Of a DNA stretch of 53,613 nt, positions 14,857-38,046 are shown in pieces; position 1 is the first letter of the stretch; each line of letters starts with the position of its first letter. This DNA is from Chitinophagales bacterium (lineage in GTDB: Bacteria > Bacteroidota > Bacteroidia > Chitinophagales > S012-47): contig JALSIH010000155.1 in NCBI GenBank assembly GCA_026981615.1, forward strand, positions 1 through 53,613, in the 5' to 3' direction. The notes below the pieces were generated by a model. It worked only from the letters and a program-made list of their open reading frames with translations, made no database searches and was not told the origin of the DNA. Both the position numbers and the translations under genes were made by a program.

Positions 14857-14930
14857 GCCAGCATAGCTCAGTTGGCCAGAGCAGCTGATTTGTAATCAGC
14901 GGGTCGGGGGTTCGAATCCCTCTGCTGGCT
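14857..14930 (+). tRNA. tRNA-Thr (TGT)
   Basis: Full cloverleaf: acceptor GCCAGCA pairs with TGCTGGC, the anticodon arm GCTGA-loop-TCAGC shows TGT, and the T arm has GGTTCGAATCC. CCA is not encoded. Confidence 0.95.
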
Positions 14931-14937
14931 CGATAAT

Positions 14938-15019
14938 GGGGAGATACCGAAGCGGTCAAACGGGGCAGACTGTAAATCTGTTGGCTTAGCCTTCGTAGGT
15001 TCGAATCCTGCTCTCCCCA
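14938..15019 (+). tRNA. tRNA-Tyr (GTA)
   Basis: 82-base class II tRNA with a long variable arm. Acceptor GGGGAGA pairs with TCTCCCC; the anticodon arm CAGAC-loop-GTCTG type shows GTA. Discriminator A, no encoded CCA. Confidence 0.95.
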
Positions 15020-15066
15020 CTTGATTTTTCAGTGTGGAGCGGATGCATGGCAAACTTGATAAATAA

Positions 15067-15139
15067 GCGGGAGTAGCTCAGTTGGTAGAGCGACAGCCTT
15101 CCAAGCTGTAGGTCGCGGGTTCGAGCCTCGTCTCCCGCT
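15067..15139 (+). tRNA. tRNA-Gly (TCC)
   Basis: Acceptor GCGGGAG pairs with CTCCCGC; anticodon stem ACAGC/GCTGT encloses a loop with TCC. No encoded CCA. Confidence 0.95.
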
Positions 15140-15313
15140 CTGATGATGGGATGGAAGCAATCAAAAGAAATTGCGATTGCTTGCAGGGAATGGAAGAGAA
15201 GAAATTGGATTGAAAAAGCCGGTGAGACCCGGAAGAATGATTGCAGAAGAGAGGAGAGAAATATGCAGCGGCAATGATTCTGAAGAGCTCCTTGAAACAA
15301 AGGTTTTGGGAAA
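15140..15313. other. Spacer inside the tRNA cluster
   Basis: 174 bases with no recognised gene, purine-rich on the plus strand. GCAATC and GATTGC (15154 region) can form a small six-pair stem. No tRNA-like fold or terminator is evident. Confidence 0.4.
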
Positions 15314-15385
15314 GCCGATGTAGCTCAGGGGTAGAGCGCTTCCTTGGTAAGGAAGAGGTCACGGGTTCAATTCCCGTCATTGGCT
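15314..15385 (+). tRNA. tRNA-Thr (GGT)
   Basis: 72-base tRNA. Acceptor GCCGATG pairs with CATTGGC (one G-T pair); anticodon stem CTTCC/GGAAG encloses a loop with GGT. It lies 68 bases before tuf. Confidence 0.95.
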
Positions 15386-15453
15386 CAAGTTATTTTTTTG
15401 GCAAAAATTTTTACCGATAAAAATTAATAATAACGATTTAAACGACAAGTGCT

Positions 15454-16641
15454 ATGGCAAAAGAAAAATTCGAACGTACGAAACCGCACGTGAATATTGG
15501 TACCATCGGTCACGTTGACCACGGGAAAACCACACTCACCGCTGCAATTACAAAAGTGCTCTCAAAGCAAGGACTTGCTGAACAGAAAGACTATGATTCT
15601 ATTGATGCGGCTCCGGAAGAGAAAGAGCGCGGTATCACTATAAATACAGCACACGTGGAGTATGAAACGGAAAACCGTCACTATGCACACGTTGACTGTC
15701 CGGGTCACGCTGACTATGTGAAAAACATGGTTACAGGTGCGGCTCAGATGGATGGTGCCATATTGGTAGTGGCTGCCACTGACGGACCCATGCCGCAAAC
15801 GCGTGAGCACATCCTGCTTGCCCGTCAGGTAGGTGTGCCGGCTGTTGTGGCTTTCCTCAACAAAACCGACCTCGTGGATGACCCCGAGCTGATCGAACTG
15901 GTGGAAATGGAAGTGCGCGAGCTGCTTTCTTTCTATGAATTTGATGGCGACAATGTGCCTATCACACAGGGTTCTGCACTGAAAGCGCTCGAAGGAGATG
16001 CCGAAGCAGAGCAAGCCATCATTGATCTGATGAAGACGGTGGATGAGTACATCCCGACTCCTGCCAGAGATATTGACAAGCCTTTCCTCATGCCGGTGGA
16101 AGATGTATTTTCCATTACCGGACGGGGCACGGTGGCCACAGGCCGTATCGAGCGGGGAGTGATCAATACGGGCGATCCGGTTGAGATCATCGGATTGATG
16201 GAAAAAGCAATGAAATCGACCATCACGGGTGTTGAAATGTTTCGTAAAATCCTTGACCGCGGTGAAGCCGGTGACAATGTGGGGCTGCTCCTCCGCGGAA
16301 TCGACAAGAAAGAAATCAAGAGGGGTATGGTTGTTTGTGCTCCGGGCTCCATTACTCCGCACACGGAATTCAAATGTGAGGTGTACGTATTGAGCAAAGA
16401 TGAAGGCGGACGTCACACTCCGTTCTTCAACAACTATCGTCCGCAGTTCTACTTCCGTACGACAGATGTAACGGGAGAAGTGCAATTGCCCGAAGGTACG
16501 GAAATGGTTATGCCGGGTGACAATGTGACGCTGACGGTAAAACTGATCTACCCGATAGCCATGGAAAAAGGACTTCGTTTCGCTATTCGCGAAGGAGGAC
16601 GTACCGTGGGTGCCGGACAGGTTACCGAGATTATTAAATAA
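15454..16641 (+). CDS. tuf: Elongation factor Tu
   Basis: EF-Tu delivers aminoacyl-tRNA to the ribosome with GTP. The 395-residue protein has G1 GHVDHGKT at 19-26, the RGITI switch, DCPGHADY and NKTD (the family more often has NKCD or NKVD), then domains II and III ending in [10 protein letters not shown]. It is embedded in a tRNA-tuf-tRNA unit with tRNA-Thr upstream and tRNA-Trp 11 bases downstream, so the message is probably cut out of a mixed transcript. No SD site precedes the ATG, as usual in this phylum. Confidence 0.98.
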
Positions 16642-16652
16642 ATGCTCAACGT

Positions 16653-16725
<73 letters not shown>

Positions 16726-16742
16726 CAATTTGCTTCTGAATT

Positions 16743-16931
16743 ATGAATGCACTTAAAAATTATATAGTAGAGTCGTACATCGAATTGTCCAAGAAGGTCA
16801 CCTGGCCCACTTTTGCCGAATTGCAAAAAAGTGCCATTGTGGTATTGATCGCTTCCATGATCATTGCCCTTGTGCTGCTGGCCATGGACCTCTTTTCGAA
16901 CAAGGTGCTTGACTTTTACTATGCGATGTAA
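16743..16931 (+). CDS. secE: Preprotein translocase subunit SecE
   Basis: The 62-residue protein is the short bacterial form of SecE, which clamps SecY in the inner membrane. It has the amphipathic N-terminal helix with the conserved KKVTWPTFAEL (around residues 17-27) and a single membrane span (about 30-50). It starts 17 bases after tRNA-Trp and is followed by nusG 19 bases later, the standard order. Confidence 0.95.
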   Translation: MNALKNYIVESYIELSKKVTWPTFAELQKSAIVVLIASMIIALVLLAMDLFSNKVLDFYYAM

Positions 16932-16950
16932 TCCGCACAAATAGAATTCG

Positions 16951-30378: not shown

Positions 30379-31236
30379 TTACCCGATTTTCTTCTTTGCT
30401 TTCCACCTTCGATGGCTCCAAAGCCATAGAGGCGGATCATCACGAATTTCCTCTTCCAGTTTTTTTACGTAATCGGCTATAGGGTCTTTTTCGTCCAGCA
30501 GCTCAAAACGCAGGCGGTAATGCCCCCGTTTTACTTTGCTGAAGCGACCGAAGATGACGGCACTTTCGGTGCGGGCACTTAGTTTGTTCACGATGGAGTA
30601 AAAGGCCGTCTCCTGGCCGAGAAAGGAATACCAATTGCATTGAGCAGGATTGGAAGGTGACTGGTCATAAAGAATCAGAGTCAGGGTTTGTTTTTTCTTT
30701 TCGGCAAGCAAGCTGCGCCCCATTTCATTCTGCGGAATAAGCCGGCCCTTGTAACGTTTCCTTGAGGTTCTGAGCAGGCGATCGAATAAAGCTGACTTCA
30801 GCGGCCGGTACACAGCTTGATTAAAAAAAGGCGAGTGCTTGTAAAGCCCGATCTTGATGTATTCCCAGTTGGCATAATGACCGATCAGCAGGATAACGGA
30901 GCGTCCCTCGGCATAAATTTCGGCAAGCAATTCCTCTCCTTCAACTTGCAGGCGGTTTGCAAGTTTTTCGGGCGGTTGGGATATGCTTTTTATGTTTTCG
31001 AAAATAAGATCGGAGAAATGCCGGTAAAAACGCCTCCGGAATGTCTTCAACTCGTCATCCGGCTTTTCCGGGAAAGCACGGCTTAGGTTGGCTGATATTA
31101 CATGATATCGGTAGCGTAAGAGGTGTTCCAGAACAAATGCCAAAAGATCGCTCAAAAGATATAGGATCCGTATGGGCAGCAAGGAGAAAGCATAAATAAG
31201 GGAATACAGAAAATAGAAGCGGAAATTTTTCCACAT
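30379..31236 (-). CDS. LpxL/LpxM-type lipid A acyltransferase
   Basis: The 285-residue membrane-anchored protein has an N-terminal hydrophobic segment (about 8-35) and the acyltransferase motif H120-YANW-E125 (HX4E), then a region with LYDQSPSNP corresponding to the second substrate-binding motif. Family members move acyl chains onto lipid A precursors at the inner membrane. It follows the GWxTD gene by 11 bases on the minus strand, and both are likely one transcript. Specific chain or position is not readable; an ornithine-lipid or other lysophospholipid role is possible. Confidence 0.87.
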   Translation of the reverse strand: MWKNFRFYFLYSLIYAFSLLPIRILYLLSDLLAFVLEHLLRYRYHVISANLSRAFPEKPDDELKTFRRRFYRHFSDLIFENIKSISQPPEKLANRLQVEGEELLAEIYAEGRSVILLIGHYANWEYIKIGLYKHSPFFNQAVYRPLKSALFDRLLRTSRKRYKGRLIPQNEMGRSLLAEKKKQTLTLILYDQSPSNPAQCNWYSFLGQETAFYSIVNKLSARTESAVIFGRFSKVKRGHYRLRFELLDEKDPIADYVKKLEEEIRDDPPLWLWSHRRWKAKKKIG

Positions 31237-31247
31237 GCAATGATCTT

Positions 31248-32732
31248 TTATTGATCTCTGAAAAGTTCGTCATTGGAATTCCCGAATGTACCGGGTCGCT
31301 CCTGTTTGTCGAGGCCGGGTGTTATATTGAACGCATTTCGAACAACGAGTTCCCAGTTTTGATTTTTTAGCTCTCCCGTAGCATTAGAGTGGATTAATTC
31401 AAAATTATTGCTGATCAGATCGGTTGCTTTAAATACAAAGAAGACATTGGTTTCTCCGAAGGGGGTGCGGTTGTATCGCCAGATTTCATACGGATTTGCA
31501 TCTGTCTCATATTTTGATTCGAATCGTTCGTCCGGTTCGCCATACTCCAGATACACCCGCCCGCGGTCGGTTTCATAGCTTCTGCGATTCATTATTGCGA
31601 ATTCATTCTTCACAAAAGCAAGTCTTTTTTTGTACTGATTCCAGGCTTTTTCCGGTGCTTCAAGGTTGCGGTTTGACCAGAAATGAAAGAAGAACTGGCG
31701 TATGAGTTCCGTGTCGCCTTTTGCAAGGACTGTGTTAATTGCCTGGGCTTCGAGGTTGCTGGCAACCGGCTTCAGTGAGTTGAGATACCAGTCTAACTCA
31801 TCAGAGGGCAGAAGGCCGGCAAAAGTGGAGTCAATATTTATATTCCTGCTGGCTGCTTCATGGCCGGGTTCCTCCTCTATCTCCGAATTGCGGTAAAAAA
31901 CCATCTCATTGCCGGTAATCAGATGGTTCTCCCGGTTTCGTGCTTCGAGCAGAAGGCGATAAGTGCCTCGGGGGAGGTCCTTGATTTGCAGGCTTCCGAG
32001 TATCGGATTCACGGCCGCACCTTTAATTTTTGTAAATGCGAATAGCCCGACTACCGGTTGCTTACTTGCCAGCGGATAGATGCCATAGGTGATCAGGATA
32101 TCTTCATCCAGGTAGTCCTCGTCAAGATTATATATCTCCGTATAAAACTGAAGGTCCTTTGCTGCGGCCGGATAATAGTTTACAAAGTGCGGATAGAGAA
32201 TAAGCCCGTTCTTTTTGAAGGTATGTTCTTTCGTACTTGTAGTTACACTGTCCAGCAAGCGAAAATCCGAGAGTGCTACAGCTCCCGGCTCAAAGTTCAT
32301 GTTGAGTGAATCAGGAGGATAACGGGTGATACGATCGGGGTTGTGGAGGTCTTTCAGTTTTATTTCCACATTGTAGCGCCCGTTTGGCAGTACGATCCTC
32401 CGCATGGCAATCAGGTGGAAGTTCTCAGGATTGTCGGGAAATAGCGGAGGAGAAGTCAGGTCTACCTTGTCATAGGTGATTACTTTGTCATTTTGAAGAA
32501 AAAGGATGGTGAATTCGATACCGGCACTTTTCATGCCTCCTTGCTCTTTGAAAGTCAGCGTAGAAGCATCTGCCGAGATCAGTACTTCTACAAAGGGGGT
32601 TTCCGAAGGGGTGTTGTAGCGGTTGATTTCAAACCAGCACTTAATTTCTCCGTTTTTAAGTTCCTGACCTCTTAATGGCGGCACAAGGGCAAAGGTCAAT
32701 AACAGTAAAGTGAAAATTCTCGAAATACTCAT
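31248..32732 (-). CDS. GWxTD domain protein, secreted
   Basis: The 494-residue protein has a signal peptide (1-22, FTLLLLTFALVPPLRGQ), a beta-rich N-terminal half and a C-terminal GWxTD-type domain: ETDRGRVYLEYGEPDER followed by PYEIWRYNR and VFFVFKATD. The defining GWxTD is changed to SYETD here, but the surrounding pattern is clear. The family is known from Bacteroidota and related phyla and is of unknown role. It heads a two-gene unit with the acyltransferase and diverges from wbqC with abutting promoter boxes. Confidence 0.85.
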   Translation of the reverse strand: MSISRIFTLLLLTFALVPPLRGQELKNGEIKCWFEINRYNTPSETPFVEVLISADASTLTFKEQGGMKSAGIEFTILFLQNDKVITYDKVDLTSPPLFPDNPENFHLIAMRRIVLPNGRYNVEIKLKDLHNPDRITRYPPDSLNMNFEPGAVALSDFRLLDSVTTSTKEHTFKKNGLILYPHFVNYYPAAAKDLQFYTEIYNLDEDYLDEDILITYGIYPLASKQPVVGLFAFTKIKGAAVNPILGSLQIKDLPRGTYRLLLEARNRENHLITGNEMVFYRNSEIEEEPGHEAASRNINIDSTFAGLLPSDELDWYLNSLKPVASNLEAQAINTVLAKGDTELIRQFFFHFWSNRNLEAPEKAWNQYKKRLAFVKNEFAIMNRRSYETDRGRVYLEYGEPDERFESKYETDANPYEIWRYNRTPFGETNVFFVFKATDLISNNFELIHSNATGELKNQNWELVVRNAFNITPGLDKQERPGTFGNSNDELFRDQ

Positions 32733-32785
32733 GAATTGGTATAGCTTGTCAGTAAACTAAGGTAATTAAGATCGTTCAATTAAAA

Positions 32786-32801
32786 TAAGTTTGCAAAAGT
32801 A
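32786..32801. promoter_or_regulatory. Back-to-back divergent -7 boxes
   Basis: TAAGTTTG on the plus strand (32786-32793) directly abuts TACTTTTG on the minus strand (32801-32794). The first would serve the WbqC gene (ATG 32811), the second the GWxTD gene (ATG 32732). Confidence 0.55.
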
Positions 32802-32810
32802 AATTTCAAA

Positions 32811-33467
32811 ATGAAAAGCAATACGGAAACCGGGCGGGGAGGCATACTGATTGAGACAATGTATCTCCCTCCGGTGCAGGTAATGGCTGCCATCATAAGA
32901 GCAGGCGTGCTTTTTCTGGAAGCAAATGAACATTATCAAAAGCGCTCCTATCGCAACCGCTGCCATATTGCCGGGCCGCAGGGGATTCAGCGTTTGAGCA
33001 TACCTCTCAAGGGTGGCAGGAATACGCACATGCCCATCAGAGAGCTGCGCATCAGCGATGCTTTTGACTGGCGACACCGGCATTTGCAGGCACTGAGAAC
33101 ATCCTACGGCAGGGCTCCGTTTTTTGACCATTACATGCCTGAATTGGAAGCCCTGATGCAAAAAAAATATTTCTTTTTGTTCGATTTGAACCGTGCATTG
33201 CTGGAATGGCTCTGCCGTTCTTTTGACTGTGAAATAAGAATTTATGAGACAGAAGCCTTTGGTCGGGCTCCGGATGCACTGGACTTGCGGGGGAAATTTC
33301 ATCCGGGCTATGCCCCCGCATTGGCATCCATGCCCACCTATTATCAGGTCTTTGCCGAGCGAAACGGCTTTATCCCGGGCCTTAGTGCCCTTGACCTGCT
33401 TTTTCACCTGGGCCCCGAGTCCCTGCTTTATTTAAAGCAGTTGCGGCTATCGGATTTTAACCTGTAG
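32811..33467 (+). CDS. WbqC-like family protein
   Basis: The 218-residue cytoplasmic protein matches the WbqC family by MYLPPVQVMAAI, then EANEHYQKRSYRNRCHIAG and LSIPLKGGRN. WbqC proteins occur in O-antigen clusters of some bacteria and, in Bacteroidota, as single core genes; the reaction is not settled. No polysaccharide genes are near, so no pathway can be assigned. The ATG lies 17 bases after a promoter box. Confidence 0.83.
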   Translation: MKSNTETGRGGILIETMYLPPVQVMAAIIRAGVLFLEANEHYQKRSYRNRCHIAGPQGIQRLSIPLKGGRNTHMPIRELRISDAFDWRHRHLQALRTSYGRAPFFDHYMPELEALMQKKYFFLFDLNRALLEWLCRSFDCEIRIYETEAFGRAPDALDLRGKFHPGYAPALASMPTYYQVFAERNGFIPGLSALDLLFHLGPESLLYLKQLRLSDFNL

Positions 33468-33509: not shown

Positions 33510-35603
33510 ATGAAAAGGATGCTGATTTTTGTTTTTGCTCTTATACCGGCCCTCATGCAGGGTCGGGCACAGTCGTCTTTTGATCGCGGATTTATCGATA
33601 TAGGACAGATCGGATTCTCGTTGACCAATGCAGGCACGGTAGGCTGGCCCGATGTGCGCAACAATCCCCAAGGTCCGCCATCCATGGAATATCCGCTTAA
33701 CTCCGGAATTGAGCACCTCTTCGAAGGCGGCCTGTGGATCGGTGCCAAAGTGAACGGGCAGACAGCCGTCTCTACCGCCTCTGTGGACTTCCCGACCGGA
33801 TATACCACCGGTGCATCGGGCTTTGAATTTACGGCTGAAATCGGGCAGCGCATCCGCCAGCGATCGACATTGACCAACAGCGATTATTTTGCTTTCGATG
33901 CCGTGTCGCACCAAGATATGGTGATGGACTTTTCGGACCGAAATGCCATTGTTCCGGGTACCTCGATACCGATCGACAATCATGATCTGCCGCTGGGGGC
34001 TCAGGTACACCTTGAGGCATATGCATGGAATTTTTCCTTTGCCGACTTCTTCGTTATTCTGGATATTACCATCACAAATACTTCTACCTCTACCTGGGAT
34101 TCGGTGTATTTCGGATACTGGACGGACATGGTGGTGCGAAATATCAATGTGGCCACCGATGGCGGTGCCGCTTTCTTTAACAAAGGTGCCGGAGGATACA
34201 TAGACTCGCTCTTTGCCATCTATGCCTTTGACGTAACGGGGGATCCGGGTTATACCAATTCCTATGGGGCTTCACAGTTTCTGGGTCTTGAATGGCGCGA
34301 TCGCTTTGTACATCCCAACACGGCAGCCGACCTGGTCAATGAAGGTTTTCCGCGACCGAAAGTCAATGCCAATTTCTGGGTCTTTCGTCAGTTTGACGGC
34401 AGCCAGTTCGGGGCTCCGGCCAATGATATTGAGCGCTATGAAAAGATGTCGAAGGGGCTCAATTTCAAAGATGCTGCATTGGTTGAGTTTCTTCAGGAGC
34501 CCAACAACCGGACACAACTGCTTTCCTTCGGCCCCCTCCAGTCGGTGGAGCCGGGCGAGACCGTAAAGCTGGCATGGGGCTTTGTATGTGCCCGCCAGCT
34601 TGAAACCGGGGCGGCCACAGGCCCTGAAATGGATACGCGCTATGCCCAGACTGAGCTTCGTGAGCATCTGGGCTGGTCGCAAAGAACCTATTTCGGAGAA
34701 GACCTCAACGGAAACGGAGCACTTGACCCCGGTGAGGATATTGACGGTGACGGAGTGCTGGATCGCTATATCCTGCCCGAGCCGCCTGCCGACCCGAAAG
34801 TGCATATCGTAAGTGATGACGGGAAAATTAAAATATACTGGGATGCAGCCTCCGAAGAGTCCATCGACCCTGTGAGCAAAGTAAAAGATTTTGAAGGGTA
34901 TCGTATCTATCGCACCAACCCCGGTGATGACCGGCAGGCCAACCTTGACAAGGAATTAAACCTCATTGCCCAGTTTGACAGGGAAGCGAATGAGATCGGC
35001 TTTAACAATGGATTTGATGCCATACGCCTGAATGAGCCGCTTACTTTTGAAGGCGATAGCACCGTATATACGTATCTCTTCGAGCTGGACAATGTGCTCA
35101 ACGGATGGCAATATGAAATTGTAGTGACGGCCTTCGACCGGGGCAACCGGGAGCTCAATATCCCTTCTCTGGAATCCAGTTTTGTAGCGAATTCTTTCAG
35201 GGTATGGAGCGGCACTCCGGTAAATGAAAGCCCTACCGCCCAGGAAATCGGGGTCTATCCCAATCCCTATATTATCAATGCCGCCTGGGACGGAAGTACA
35301 CCCCAAACTCGAAAACTCTATTTCTACAACCTGCCTGCCCGTTGTGAAATCACGGTGTATACCGTTTCGGGGGATGTAGTAGCCGTAATCGACCACGATG
35401 CGGCAAGCTACCGGGGCGAAGATATTCAGTGGTTTGCTAATTTTGGAGGAGCAGCCGAAAAACGGATTACACCCGGAGGAGAACATGCCTGGGATATTCT
35501 GACCAACAGCAAACAAACCATCACACAGGGTCTTTATCTTTTCACGGTCAAAGACCTCAGTACAGGCGTTTCCTATCCGGGGAGATTTGCTGTACTGAAA
35601 TAA
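33510..35603 (+). CDS. Large secreted protein with EF-hand-like loop and T9SS-like C-terminus
   Basis: A 697-residue protein with a signal peptide (1-20, cut after GRAQ). The body is beta-rich and acidic. A repeated Asp/Asn-rich segment at about 398-420 (DLNGNGALDPG, then DIDGDGVLDRY) looks like two calcium-binding loops of the EF-hand/dockerin kind. A fibronectin III-like part follows (KIYWDAASEESIDPV, then GYRIYRTN). The C-terminal part starts at IGVYPNPYIINA and ends GRFAVLK, like a divergent T9SS type A sorting domain. It probably is exported to the surface. The specific role is unknown. It is followed by another secreted protein 34 bases later. Confidence 0.82.
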   Translation: MKRMLIFVFALIPALMQGRAQSSFDRGFIDIGQIGFSLTNAGTVGWPDVRNNPQGPPSMEYPLNSGIEHLFEGGLWIGAKVNGQTAVSTASVDFPTGYTTGASGFEFTAEIGQRIRQRSTLTNSDYFAFDAVSHQDMVMDFSDRNAIVPGTSIPIDNHDLPLGAQVHLEAYAWNFSFADFFVILDITITNTSTSTWDSVYFGYWTDMVVRNINVATDGGAAFFNKGAGGYIDSLFAIYAFDVTGDPGYTNSYGASQFLGLEWRDRFVHPNTAADLVNEGFPRPKVNANFWVFRQFDGSQFGAPANDIERYEKMSKGLNFKDAALVEFLQEPNNRTQLLSFGPLQSVEPGETVKLAWGFVCARQLETGAATGPEMDTRYAQTELREHLGWSQRTYFGEDLNGNGALDPGEDIDGDGVLDRYILPEPPADPKVHIVSDDGKIKIYWDAASEESIDPVSKVKDFEGYRIYRTNPGDDRQANLDKELNLIAQFDREANEIGFNNGFDAIRLNEPLTFEGDSTVYTYLFELDNVLNGWQYEIVVTAFDRGNRELNIPSLESSFVANSFRVWSGTPVNESPTAQEIGVYPNPYIINAAWDGSTPQTRKLYFYNLPARCEITVYTVSGDVVAVIDHDAASYRGEDIQWFANFGGAAEKRITPGGEHAWDILTNSKQTITQGLYLFTVKDLSTGVSYPGRFAVLK

Positions 35604-35637
35604 TTTAATTCGTATCAACTAAAAAAGGAACAACGAC

Positions 35638-38046
35638 ATGAGGAAGAACTTACTTTTATTGATTGCAATGACGCTCGTTTTGAGCCTCGGAGCTCAAAAC
35701 TATCCCCTGGTAAAAATTTCCGATATTCAGAAAGTATCGGACCAGGATCTGGCCAATGGCAACGATGCCTCTCCGAAAATAGGTGATACCGTAGAGGTGG
35801 AAGGCATTGTCACCTTCGATCCCTGTGTCTACGGCCTGAGTGCCACGAGCCGAAAGGGAACCTGGCTGCAGGACCCGGATACCGGTGCATGGAATGGCAT
35901 TCACGTACTTATTGATCCGGGTGCTATTGGCGGAGGAATGACCATGGCCGATCTGGACCTGGCTACCAAGTTTTTCGATAATTTCAAAAAAGGCAATAAG
36001 GTGCATTGCACCGGTATTGTTTCGGCCTTCTCAAACAACACACAGATTGTTCTTCTGCCGGTTGAAACCCAAATTGTAGGGCTCTCTTCGGTACCCGCCC
36101 CTCATCTGACGACCGTAGATACCTTTATGAAAAGCGATGGGGGCGGGGGACAGATCCCCCAGCTCACCACGGGCGAGCAGTACGAAGGTGTGCTGGTTGA
36201 ATTTCGCAATGTCACCATTGTGGATGTAGCCACTTTTGCCGGAGGTACGCGTATCAACTGGACCCTCCAGGATGAAAAAGGCAACGAAATCCGTGTGCGG
36301 GATGTATCCGGATGGTTTAGAAATGACGAAAACGACAACTATTGCAAAGACACCACGGAGACTCCGTGGGTGTTTCCGCTGCCCAACGAAGGCAGTCAGC
36401 TCTCATGGTTCAGAGGAATCATCCTGGACTATGCTCTGGGCGGAGAAAGGCAGTATTGGATTGCTCCGCGAGACACCAATGACATTGGCCCGCTCGTGGC
36501 CGCTGCCCCGGTTGTGCGAAAAGTGACCCGCATGCCCGTACAGGCCACTTCTTCGAATTCGGTTACCATCACGGCTACCATTGTTGATCCGGACGGTAGC
36601 GTTGCCAAAGCCGACCTTTTCTTCTCCAAGGGGCAGGGCAATACCAATTTCACACGGCTGCCAATGATTAATGTGCAAAACAATGACTGGAGTTCAAGCA
36701 TTCCTCCGAGCGGCCAGGACGGAGCCATTATGAATTTCTGGATACGTGCCATCGACAATTCGGGCGATACCACGGATTATCCGTTTACCGGGGCTACCAA
36801 TATGAATTATATCACATTGGATGACGGAATCAATGAAATCAAAGATTTGCAATATACCATTGCCAACGGACCTTCCATTTGGGCAGGCGATTCACTGACG
36901 GATATGAGCATTCATGCGGTGGTCACATCAACCCAGGAGCCCTATGACCTCGGACTCATTGCCGTTCAGGATTCGCGCGACCCTTTCTCCGGTATCATTT
37001 TGCAGCGTGTAACGGGTGATCAGCTGGGCGATCTGAGGCGCGGAGACTCCATTCTTCTCAAAACAGGCCTGGTAAGTGAGGTGTTTGGTGTCACCAATCT
37101 GAGTTATGTGCAATATGAGCTGCTGGGCAAAACAAATGTGCCCGAAGCGGTTACCGGTCTCAGTCCCGACAGCATTGCCGCAGGCGTTTTCGACCAGGCC
37201 GAAGCATATGAAGCCATGTTTGTGAAGTTTAACGATGCCTTTGTGGTAGATACCAACGCAGACGGCCCGAACAGCAACTTCGGGGAATGGGCCATCAATA
37301 CAAGTCTGACCCCGGGCAGCGGACTGCGTGTGGATGACCTCTCAAATGACATACCTTTCGGCTTTAATGTCGACAGCATGAGCATGGGCCAGCAGCTCGA
37401 CTATATTCAGGGCATTCTCTGGTACAGTTTCGGAAACTACAAATTGGAGCCCCGCAACCAGTCGGATATTGCAGGATATAATACGGAATATCCGAAACGC
37501 ATCACTTTGTTCAGCTTTCTCGGCCTCGGGCCGGGCGGAACGGATGTGATACTCAACATCGACAACGACAACAATCTCATTTATACCACGGACCCCCTGC
37601 CTGCCGGCACGGATATCAGCAATCTGGCGCCCTACATCGAATATGAAGGCGAGAGCCTGACCCCAGGCAGCGGAGTGGCTCAGGACTTCAGCGATACGGT
37701 GTACTATACCGTAACGGCACCGGTGGATGCTTCGAGCCGTACCTATGCCGTCATTGTGGATCTGGCCGTGGGTATCGGACTGCCGGAGGGGCTGAAGGCC
37801 CTTTCCATTCTGCCCAACCCCGGCAACGGCATTTTTAATCTGAATCTGGAGGTCAATGAAGCGGCTGCATACAGGGTATATGTTTATTCGATGACCGGAC
37901 GCGAATTGCTTGGCCGTAACTGGAGTGTGAACCCCGGCAGCAACCGTCTGAGCCTTGACCTCAGTGAGCTGGGGGCAGGCATGTATCTGATCCGGCTGGA
38001 AGGGGCCGGTGGCAGCATCAGCCGCAAGCTGCAGATTGTGAGATAG
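35638..38046 (+). CDS. Secreted multidomain protein with T9SS type A sorting domain
   Basis: An 802-residue protein with a signal peptide (1-19, cut near LGAQ). It begins with an OB-fold-like module (GDTVEVEGIVTFDP, then GNKVHCTGIVSAF), repeated later around residues 420-620 (GDSILLKTGLVSEVFG, FNDAFVVDTNADGPN), with Ig-like parts between. The C-terminal domain (about 725-802; LSILPNPGNGIFN, then GAGMYLIRLEG and SRKLQIVR) is a clear T9SS type A signal. Such OB-fold modules occur in secreted nuclease-associated proteins, but no nuclease domain is present here, so function is open. AAGGA lies about nine bases before the ATG. A terminator follows. Confidence 0.87.
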   Translation: MRKNLLLLIAMTLVLSLGAQNYPLVKISDIQKVSDQDLANGNDASPKIGDTVEVEGIVTFDPCVYGLSATSRKGTWLQDPDTGAWNGIHVLIDPGAIGGGMTMADLDLATKFFDNFKKGNKVHCTGIVSAFSNNTQIVLLPVETQIVGLSSVPAPHLTTVDTFMKSDGGGGQIPQLTTGEQYEGVLVEFRNVTIVDVATFAGGTRINWTLQDEKGNEIRVRDVSGWFRNDENDNYCKDTTETPWVFPLPNEGSQLSWFRGIILDYALGGERQYWIAPRDTNDIGPLVAAAPVVRKVTRMPVQATSSNSVTITATIVDPDGSVAKADLFFSKGQGNTNFTRLPMINVQNNDWSSSIPPSGQDGAIMNFWIRAIDNSGDTTDYPFTGATNMNYITLDDGINEIKDLQYTIANGPSIWAGDSLTDMSIHAVVTSTQEPYDLGLIAVQDSRDPFSGIILQRVTGDQLGDLRRGDSILLKTGLVSEVFGVTNLSYVQYELLGKTNVPEAVTGLSPDSIAAGVFDQAEAYEAMFVKFNDAFVVDTNADGPNSNFGEWAINTSLTPGSGLRVDDLSNDIPFGFNVDSMSMGQQLDYIQGILWYSFGNYKLEPRNQSDIAGYNTEYPKRITLFSFLGLGPGGTDVILNIDNDNNLIYTTDPLPAGTDISNLAPYIEYEGESLTPGSGVAQDFSDTVYYTVTAPVDASSRTYAVIVDLAVGIGLPEGLKALSILPNPGNGIFNLNLEVNEAAAYRVYVYSMTGRELLGRNWSVNPGSNRLSLDLSELGAGMYLIRLEGAGGSISRKLQIVR

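Follow-up and report, generated by a model that had tools for sequence, protein, structure and literature searches.

Opposed TAnnTTTG boxes in the wbqC/GWxTD gap

The gap between a wbqC-family gene and a gene for a GWxTD-domain protein raises the question of whether one short palindrome could start transcription of two genes in opposite directions. When positions 32786-32801 of the window (the whole 53,613-nt stretch of DNA analysed here) were inspected, the sequence TAAGTTTGCAAAAGTA was found to be a plus-strand TAnnTTTG directly abutting a minus-strand TAnnTTTG (TAAGTTTG followed by CAAAAGTA). TAnnTTTG is a known -7 element of Bacteroidota (PMC7366714, PMC9723704, PMC6847099). The head-to-head arrangement described in an earlier, sequence-only reading of this DNA was confirmed in the sequence, and the two 8-bp boxes have no base in common. 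That reading had also called the site a palindrome, which holds for the 12 specified positions of the 16-mer (TAnnTTTGCAAAnnTA) and not for the nn positions. In what follows, G000 is the window genome, G001 is a sister species of the same genus and the only one compared, and G002 and G003 belong to the same family. The features considered are listed below.

32786..32793, plus strand: plus box TAAGTTTG, candidate -7 box for wbqC, atypical in having G at -9
32794..32801, minus strand: minus box TACTTTTG, -7 box of the consensus class, directed towards GWxTD and 61 nt away from the ATG of that gene
32757..32764, minus strand: alternative box TACCTTAG, a second candidate -7 box for GWxTD, with 24 nt between it and the ATG
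32753..32799, no strand assigned: 47-bp block, 46/47 identical with the sister species G001 (alignment)
32811..33467, plus strand: wbqC-family gene, 218 aa (ORF and Pfam)
31248..32732, minus strand: GWxTD-domain protein gene, 494 aa (ORF and Pfam)
30379..31236, minus strand: lipid A biosynthesis-type acyltransferase gene, 285 aa, on the same strand as GWxTD and downstream of it
G000:C65:14630-14645: second TAnnTTTGCAAAnnTA site of the genome, flanked by a thiolase gene and a DUF4293 gene

The palindrome sits in a 78-bp gap between the divergent GWxTD (minus strand) and wbqC (plus strand) genes. Pfam matches were obtained for WbqC (1.8e-35), for Lip_A_acyltrans in the gene next to GWxTD (6.3e-34), and for GWxTD (5e-06) at 26.8 bits, just under the cut-off of 26.9. 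Among 30 fetched wbqC loci, including that of the window genome, a GWxTD gene lay within the stretch in 17, divergent every time, and outside the stretch in 13. The gene pair is old. The GWxTD protein of G001 is 82% identical to that of the window. Nothing relevant to WbqC or GWxTD was found among the literature matches listed. The region that follows wbqC (33510-38046) encodes two proteins. The first, of 697 aa, has no Pfam match; the second, of 802 aa, carries a Por_Secre_tail sorting domain and below-cut-off matches to DUF6242 and DUF5689.

With the box-to-start spacing of 4-5 nt reported for F. johnsoniae (PMC6847099), the predicted starts fall at 32788-32789 on the minus strand and 32798-32799 on the plus strand, 9-11 bp apart, and the predicted leaders are 56-57 nt for GWxTD and 12-13 nt for wbqC.

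Chance expectation

Single TAnnTTTG boxes occurred 34 times in the window compared to 27.7 expected, and 10 of 100 shuffles reached 34; the single box is neither rarer nor clearly commoner than chance in the window. The abutted pair was present once in the window; none of 100 shuffles of the window contained it, and it turned up in 2 of 40,000 simulated 78-bp gaps. Genome-wide, two abutted sites were found, both of them between divergent genes, compared to none for the pattern read backwards. These counts show that the abutted palindrome is no accident of composition.

Box classes at gene starts and the plus box

Boxes 8-45 nt from the start were counted in 314 upstream regions of G000 and G001. 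TAHHTTTG occurred 40 times, compared to 1.5 expected from coding sequence. TAHHTTTA was nearly as frequent at 33, and TAHHTTCG was enriched at starts (10), like TAHHTTAG (10). With these three further classes at starts, the -7 consensus of the genus is broader than TAnnTTTG. TGHHTTTG was found 4 times compared to 4.4 expected; G at -10 does occur at starts in this genus (7). The class counts, which were first run on loci selected for TAnnTTTG pairs, were redone without those loci; they left out the two genes of the present locus, and filters were set with the aim of removing the G001 orthologs as well.

With G at -9, the plus box does not match TAHHTTTG, the form of the -7 element in F. johnsoniae, where G at -9 is virtually absent (PMC6847099). 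At 430 sampled starts (the 314 of G000 and G001 and further loci of the order, none selected for boxes), TAHHTTTG was found 48 times and TAHGTTTG 0 times (0.4 expected), and within the 314 regions alone the latter was likewise found 0 times (0.2 expected). The plus box therefore belongs to a class not seen at starts. Among loci that were partly selected, G at -9 occurred in 2 of 67 boxes near starts compared to 78 of 475 in coding sequence. No TTG for a -33 TTTG/TTG was found by eye 15-25 nt upstream of the plus box, and a scan of the 400 nt upstream of wbqC in G000 yielded no box belonging to a used class. The plus box may work despite its G at -9, since G001 has the same box and the gap contains no other TAnnTTTG on the plus strand. 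Its distance to the wbqC ATG is 17 nt, inside the favoured range.

The motif learned from G000 and G001 is soft, with A at -11 in only 65%. It gave the minus box 11.7 bits, the best score on its strand, and the plus box 1.6 bits. The sequence TAAATTTC, 3 nt from the wbqC ATG, outranks the plus box by the learned motif; it was discarded, since transcription from it would begin within wbqC. A generic sigma-70 scan returned one weak hit on the minus strand, not above shuffles, and was not used.

The minus box and an alternative box for GWxTD

In the window species the minus box belongs to the used class TAHHTTTG. A TTG is located 17 nt upstream of it, inside wbqC; in F. johnsoniae the -33 motif is a weak one (PMC6847099). 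The minus box was not found conserved in relatives: in G001 it reads TGCTTTTG, of a class without enrichment at starts, and the wbqC/GWxTD gaps of G002 and G003 lack the palindrome. The 47-bp block, which contains the plus box and TACCTTAG, ends one base short of the base that alters the minus box. The identity of the whole gap between G000 and G001 was 0.833, rank 19 of the 28 window gaps that were mapped (one further gap could not be mapped). Since this value is ordinary, conservation is an argument for the 47-bp block only and not for the gap as a whole. The window's most conserved gaps with respect to G001 were two of those called around tRNA genes, at 15381-15453 (0.986) and 16642-16950 (0.981); five tRNA genes are located at 14857-16725.

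The alternative box TACCTTAG is present in G001, 21 nt from the GWxTD ATG compared to 24 nt in the window species, and its class, TAHHTTAG, is enriched (10 at 314 starts compared to 0.2 expected). By the learned motif it scored 3.2 bits, and 4.5 bits in G001, where TGCTTTTG ranks first on the GWxTD side with 8.8 bits. This ranking suggests that the altered box of the sister species may still work and that TACCTTAG may not. A start or box on the GWxTD side could be placed in 12 of 17 scanned relatives, and in 8 of these 12 the box was 5-19 nt from the start.

A different element was seen in the wbqC/GWxTD gaps of three genomes (G055, G017 and G011), a single self-palindromic TAAATTTA lying 5-19 nt from both starts. 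Being self-palindromic and at this distance from both genes, one 8-bp TAAATTTA could serve both strands. In the local sample, TAAATTTA was found 6 times in 97 divergent gaps and 4 times in 204 co-directional gaps, and 3 of the 6 were wbqC/GWxTD gaps fetched for that gene.

The site between the thiolase and DUF4293 genes

At the second site of the genome, the sequence was TAACTTTGCAAAATTA in G000 and G001, TAGCTTTGCAAAAGTA in G003 and TACTTTTGCAAAAGTA in G002. All 12 box positions were invariant in the four genomes of the family, so that TAnnTTTGCAAAnnTA was kept, while three of the four inner positions varied and the flanks differed much between genera. The DUF4293 partner was recognisable in all four genomes, in G003 as a weak and partial match at a contig end. 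Because the boxes are invariant while the inner bases change, the pattern is that expected of two working boxes. The thiolase/DUF4293 gap is a cleaner candidate for a bidirectional promoter than the wbqC/GWxTD site.

Face-to-face boxes in the order and beyond

In 149 genomes of Chitinophagales, the abutted pattern was found at 217 sites and the reversed pattern at 84. Among 158 genomes drawn from the phylum were 29 other genomes of the class, with 69 sites compared to 41 reversed (p=0.0097), and 119 outside the class, with 81 compared to 82. The excess therefore falls off with kinship. Back-to-back pairs (CAAAnnTATAnnTTTG) occurred at 140 sites compared to 121 for their own reversed pattern.

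The context of 70 abutted sites, taken from 75 listed of the 217, was assigned by a simple ORF heuristic, which was inconsistent at the C65 site, calling it divergent in the shorter of two stretches and co-directional in the other. Thirty sites were divergent, 17 co-directional, 20 in genes and 3 at contig edges; thus 30 of the 67 classifiable sites were located between divergent genes, and none between convergent genes. Of the sites with the reversed pattern, 3 of 30 had divergent genes on either side (p=0.0009 against the abutted 30/67). The corresponding figures were 73 of 2,396 for random positions in the fetched loci and 2 of the 26 placed single TAnnTTTGC boxes of G000, where 4 of 30 were unplaceable. 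Back-to-back pairs were between divergent genes in 10 of 29, and face-to-face pairs whose boxes are separated by a single base in 19 of 69 (p=0.049 against the abutted 30/67). The loci dropped at contig edges were 3 abutted, 1 spaced and 1 back-to-back. The 23 loci from beyond the order divided into 7 divergent, 9 co-directional and 7 coding, a weaker tendency than in the order. The p-values overstate independence, because genomes of one order are related.

A sharp dependence on spacing was suggested by the first 30 loci of each kind (15/27 abutted compared to 4/29 with one base between, p=0.0016) and was dropped, because 70 loci of each kind gave only the 30/67 and 19/69 reported above. Opposed boxes in general thus show a preference for gaps between divergent genes, and any advantage of abutment is mild at most. 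The face-to-face layout itself looks real in the order Chitinophagales.

Interpretation of the wbqC/GWxTD palindrome

The best explanation of these results, which we hold with somewhat less than even confidence, is that the palindrome is a lopsided, mostly minus-strand promoter within an order-wide bidirectional layout, with a weak start for wbqC. The 16-mer would consist of two -7 elements for the primary sigma factor of Bacteroidota, abutting face to face, and genomes of the order appear to use such abutted boxes as a bidirectional core promoter. Polymerase bound at the minus box TACTTTTG may start the GWxTD-acyltransferase transcript, presumably one operon, with a leader of approximately 56 nt. 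The second box TACCTTAG perhaps also starts GWxTD, with a leader of about 19-20 nt. The plus box TAAGTTTG, presumably the weaker of the pair, would give weak wbqC transcription at most.

The sequence-only reading had proposed that the two boxes serve the genes on either side. As a general idea the bidirectional promoter gained ground, because the order shows an enrichment of the layout between divergent genes and the layout is conserved at thiolase/DUF4293. At the present locus, service of both genes was called into question by the G at -9 (0/430), by the altered minus box of the sister species, and by the gaps of G002 and G003 without a palindrome, with a conserved alternative box for GWxTD at 24 nt. 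The same reading had held that the two transcripts would be mutually exclusive at any moment. The steric part of this claim is a fair inference on general grounds, since polymerases on any two of these sites would probably overlap; steric exclusion alone would not be expected to give competition in output.

A balanced promoter, with both boxes as main starts and one polymerase bound at a time, appears unlikely. The boxes abut perfectly, the plus box is within the favoured distance of its ATG, the layout is found across the order and conserved at thiolase/DUF4293, and the altered minus box of G001 is still the top score on its strand. Against such balance are the G at -9 in the plus box, the change of the minus box in the sister and its distance of 61 nt to the ATG, and the palindrome-free gaps of G002 and G003.

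We consider it rather unlikely that the pair arose by chance at this locus, with TACCTTAG driving GWxTD, a weak or undescribed element driving wbqC, and the minus half accidental in the window species. Such an origin would fit the presence of TACCTTAG near the ATG in G001 as well, the absence of the full palindrome from the sister and the wider family, and the GWxTD-side boxes 5-19 nt from the start in 8 of 12 relatives of the order. It is opposed by the 0/100 shuffles and 2/40,000 simulated gaps, by the 46 of 47 bases up to the minus box that are common to G001, and by the low learned-motif score of TACCTTAG.

That TTTGCAAA is an operator binding a dimeric regulator rather than a pair of promoter boxes is very improbable. 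In its favour, palindromes between divergent genes are often operators, and each of the genome's two sites is close to the starts of both its genes. However, of 27 occurrences of TTTGCAAA without the flanking TA on either side, in the window and sampled stretches, 22 were in genes. At thiolase/DUF4293 it is the columns of the -7 boxes that are conserved, with inner bases mostly free, and Pfam identified no regulator among the four flanking genes.

Comparison with known systems

In E. coli and Salmonella, bidirectional promoters have near-symmetric -10 elements (PMC12825309, PMC10268837), and their divergent starts are 7-25 bp apart, usually 18 bp (Warman et al. 2021, 2026; Middlemiss et al. 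2023). In E. coli, 24% of them lie between divergent genes; when one -35 was mutated in five of them, the other direction was little affected at basal activity, while a strongly activated direction can repress its opposite (PMC12825309). A bidirectional promoter made of TAnnTTTG boxes in Bacteroidota was not found described in the literature searched, which is no proof of absence.

The wbqC/GWxTD palindrome resembles the E. coli promoters in placing opposed core elements in one short sequence. It differs from the sigma-70 type, in which a near-symmetric -10 is shared, in that two separate sigma-A(Bfr) boxes abut, with predicted starts 9-11 bp apart. By hand reasoning, the letters of TAnnTTTG make an 18-bp overlap of the E. 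coli type impossible. Because the geometry differs and two-way activity is here a prediction, the palindrome was not filed as a member of the E. coli type. With sigma-A(Bfr) promoters it has in common the -7 element and predicted leaders within the published range, and G at -9 is rare at starts here as in F. johnsoniae. Those promoters are treated as directional in the literature found. The genus also departs from plain TAnnTTTG in its use of TAHHTTTA (33 compared to 40 for TAHHTTTG) and of G at -10 (7).

Bidirectional promoters have been argued to follow from the symmetry of the core element, and Bacteroidota, whose core element has different letters, should therefore have a different geometry. 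The present counts suggest one that is specific and testable, and thiolase/DUF4293 as a conserved locus. We give even weight to the view that Bacteroidia have a bidirectional core promoter class of their own, in which TAnnTTTG abutting CAAAnnTA, with starts approximately 9-11 bp apart, and the self-palindromic TAAATTTA serving both strands would replace the 18-bp shared sigma-70 -10; thiolase/DUF4293 would be a conserved example of this class and wbqC/GWxTD a lopsided one.
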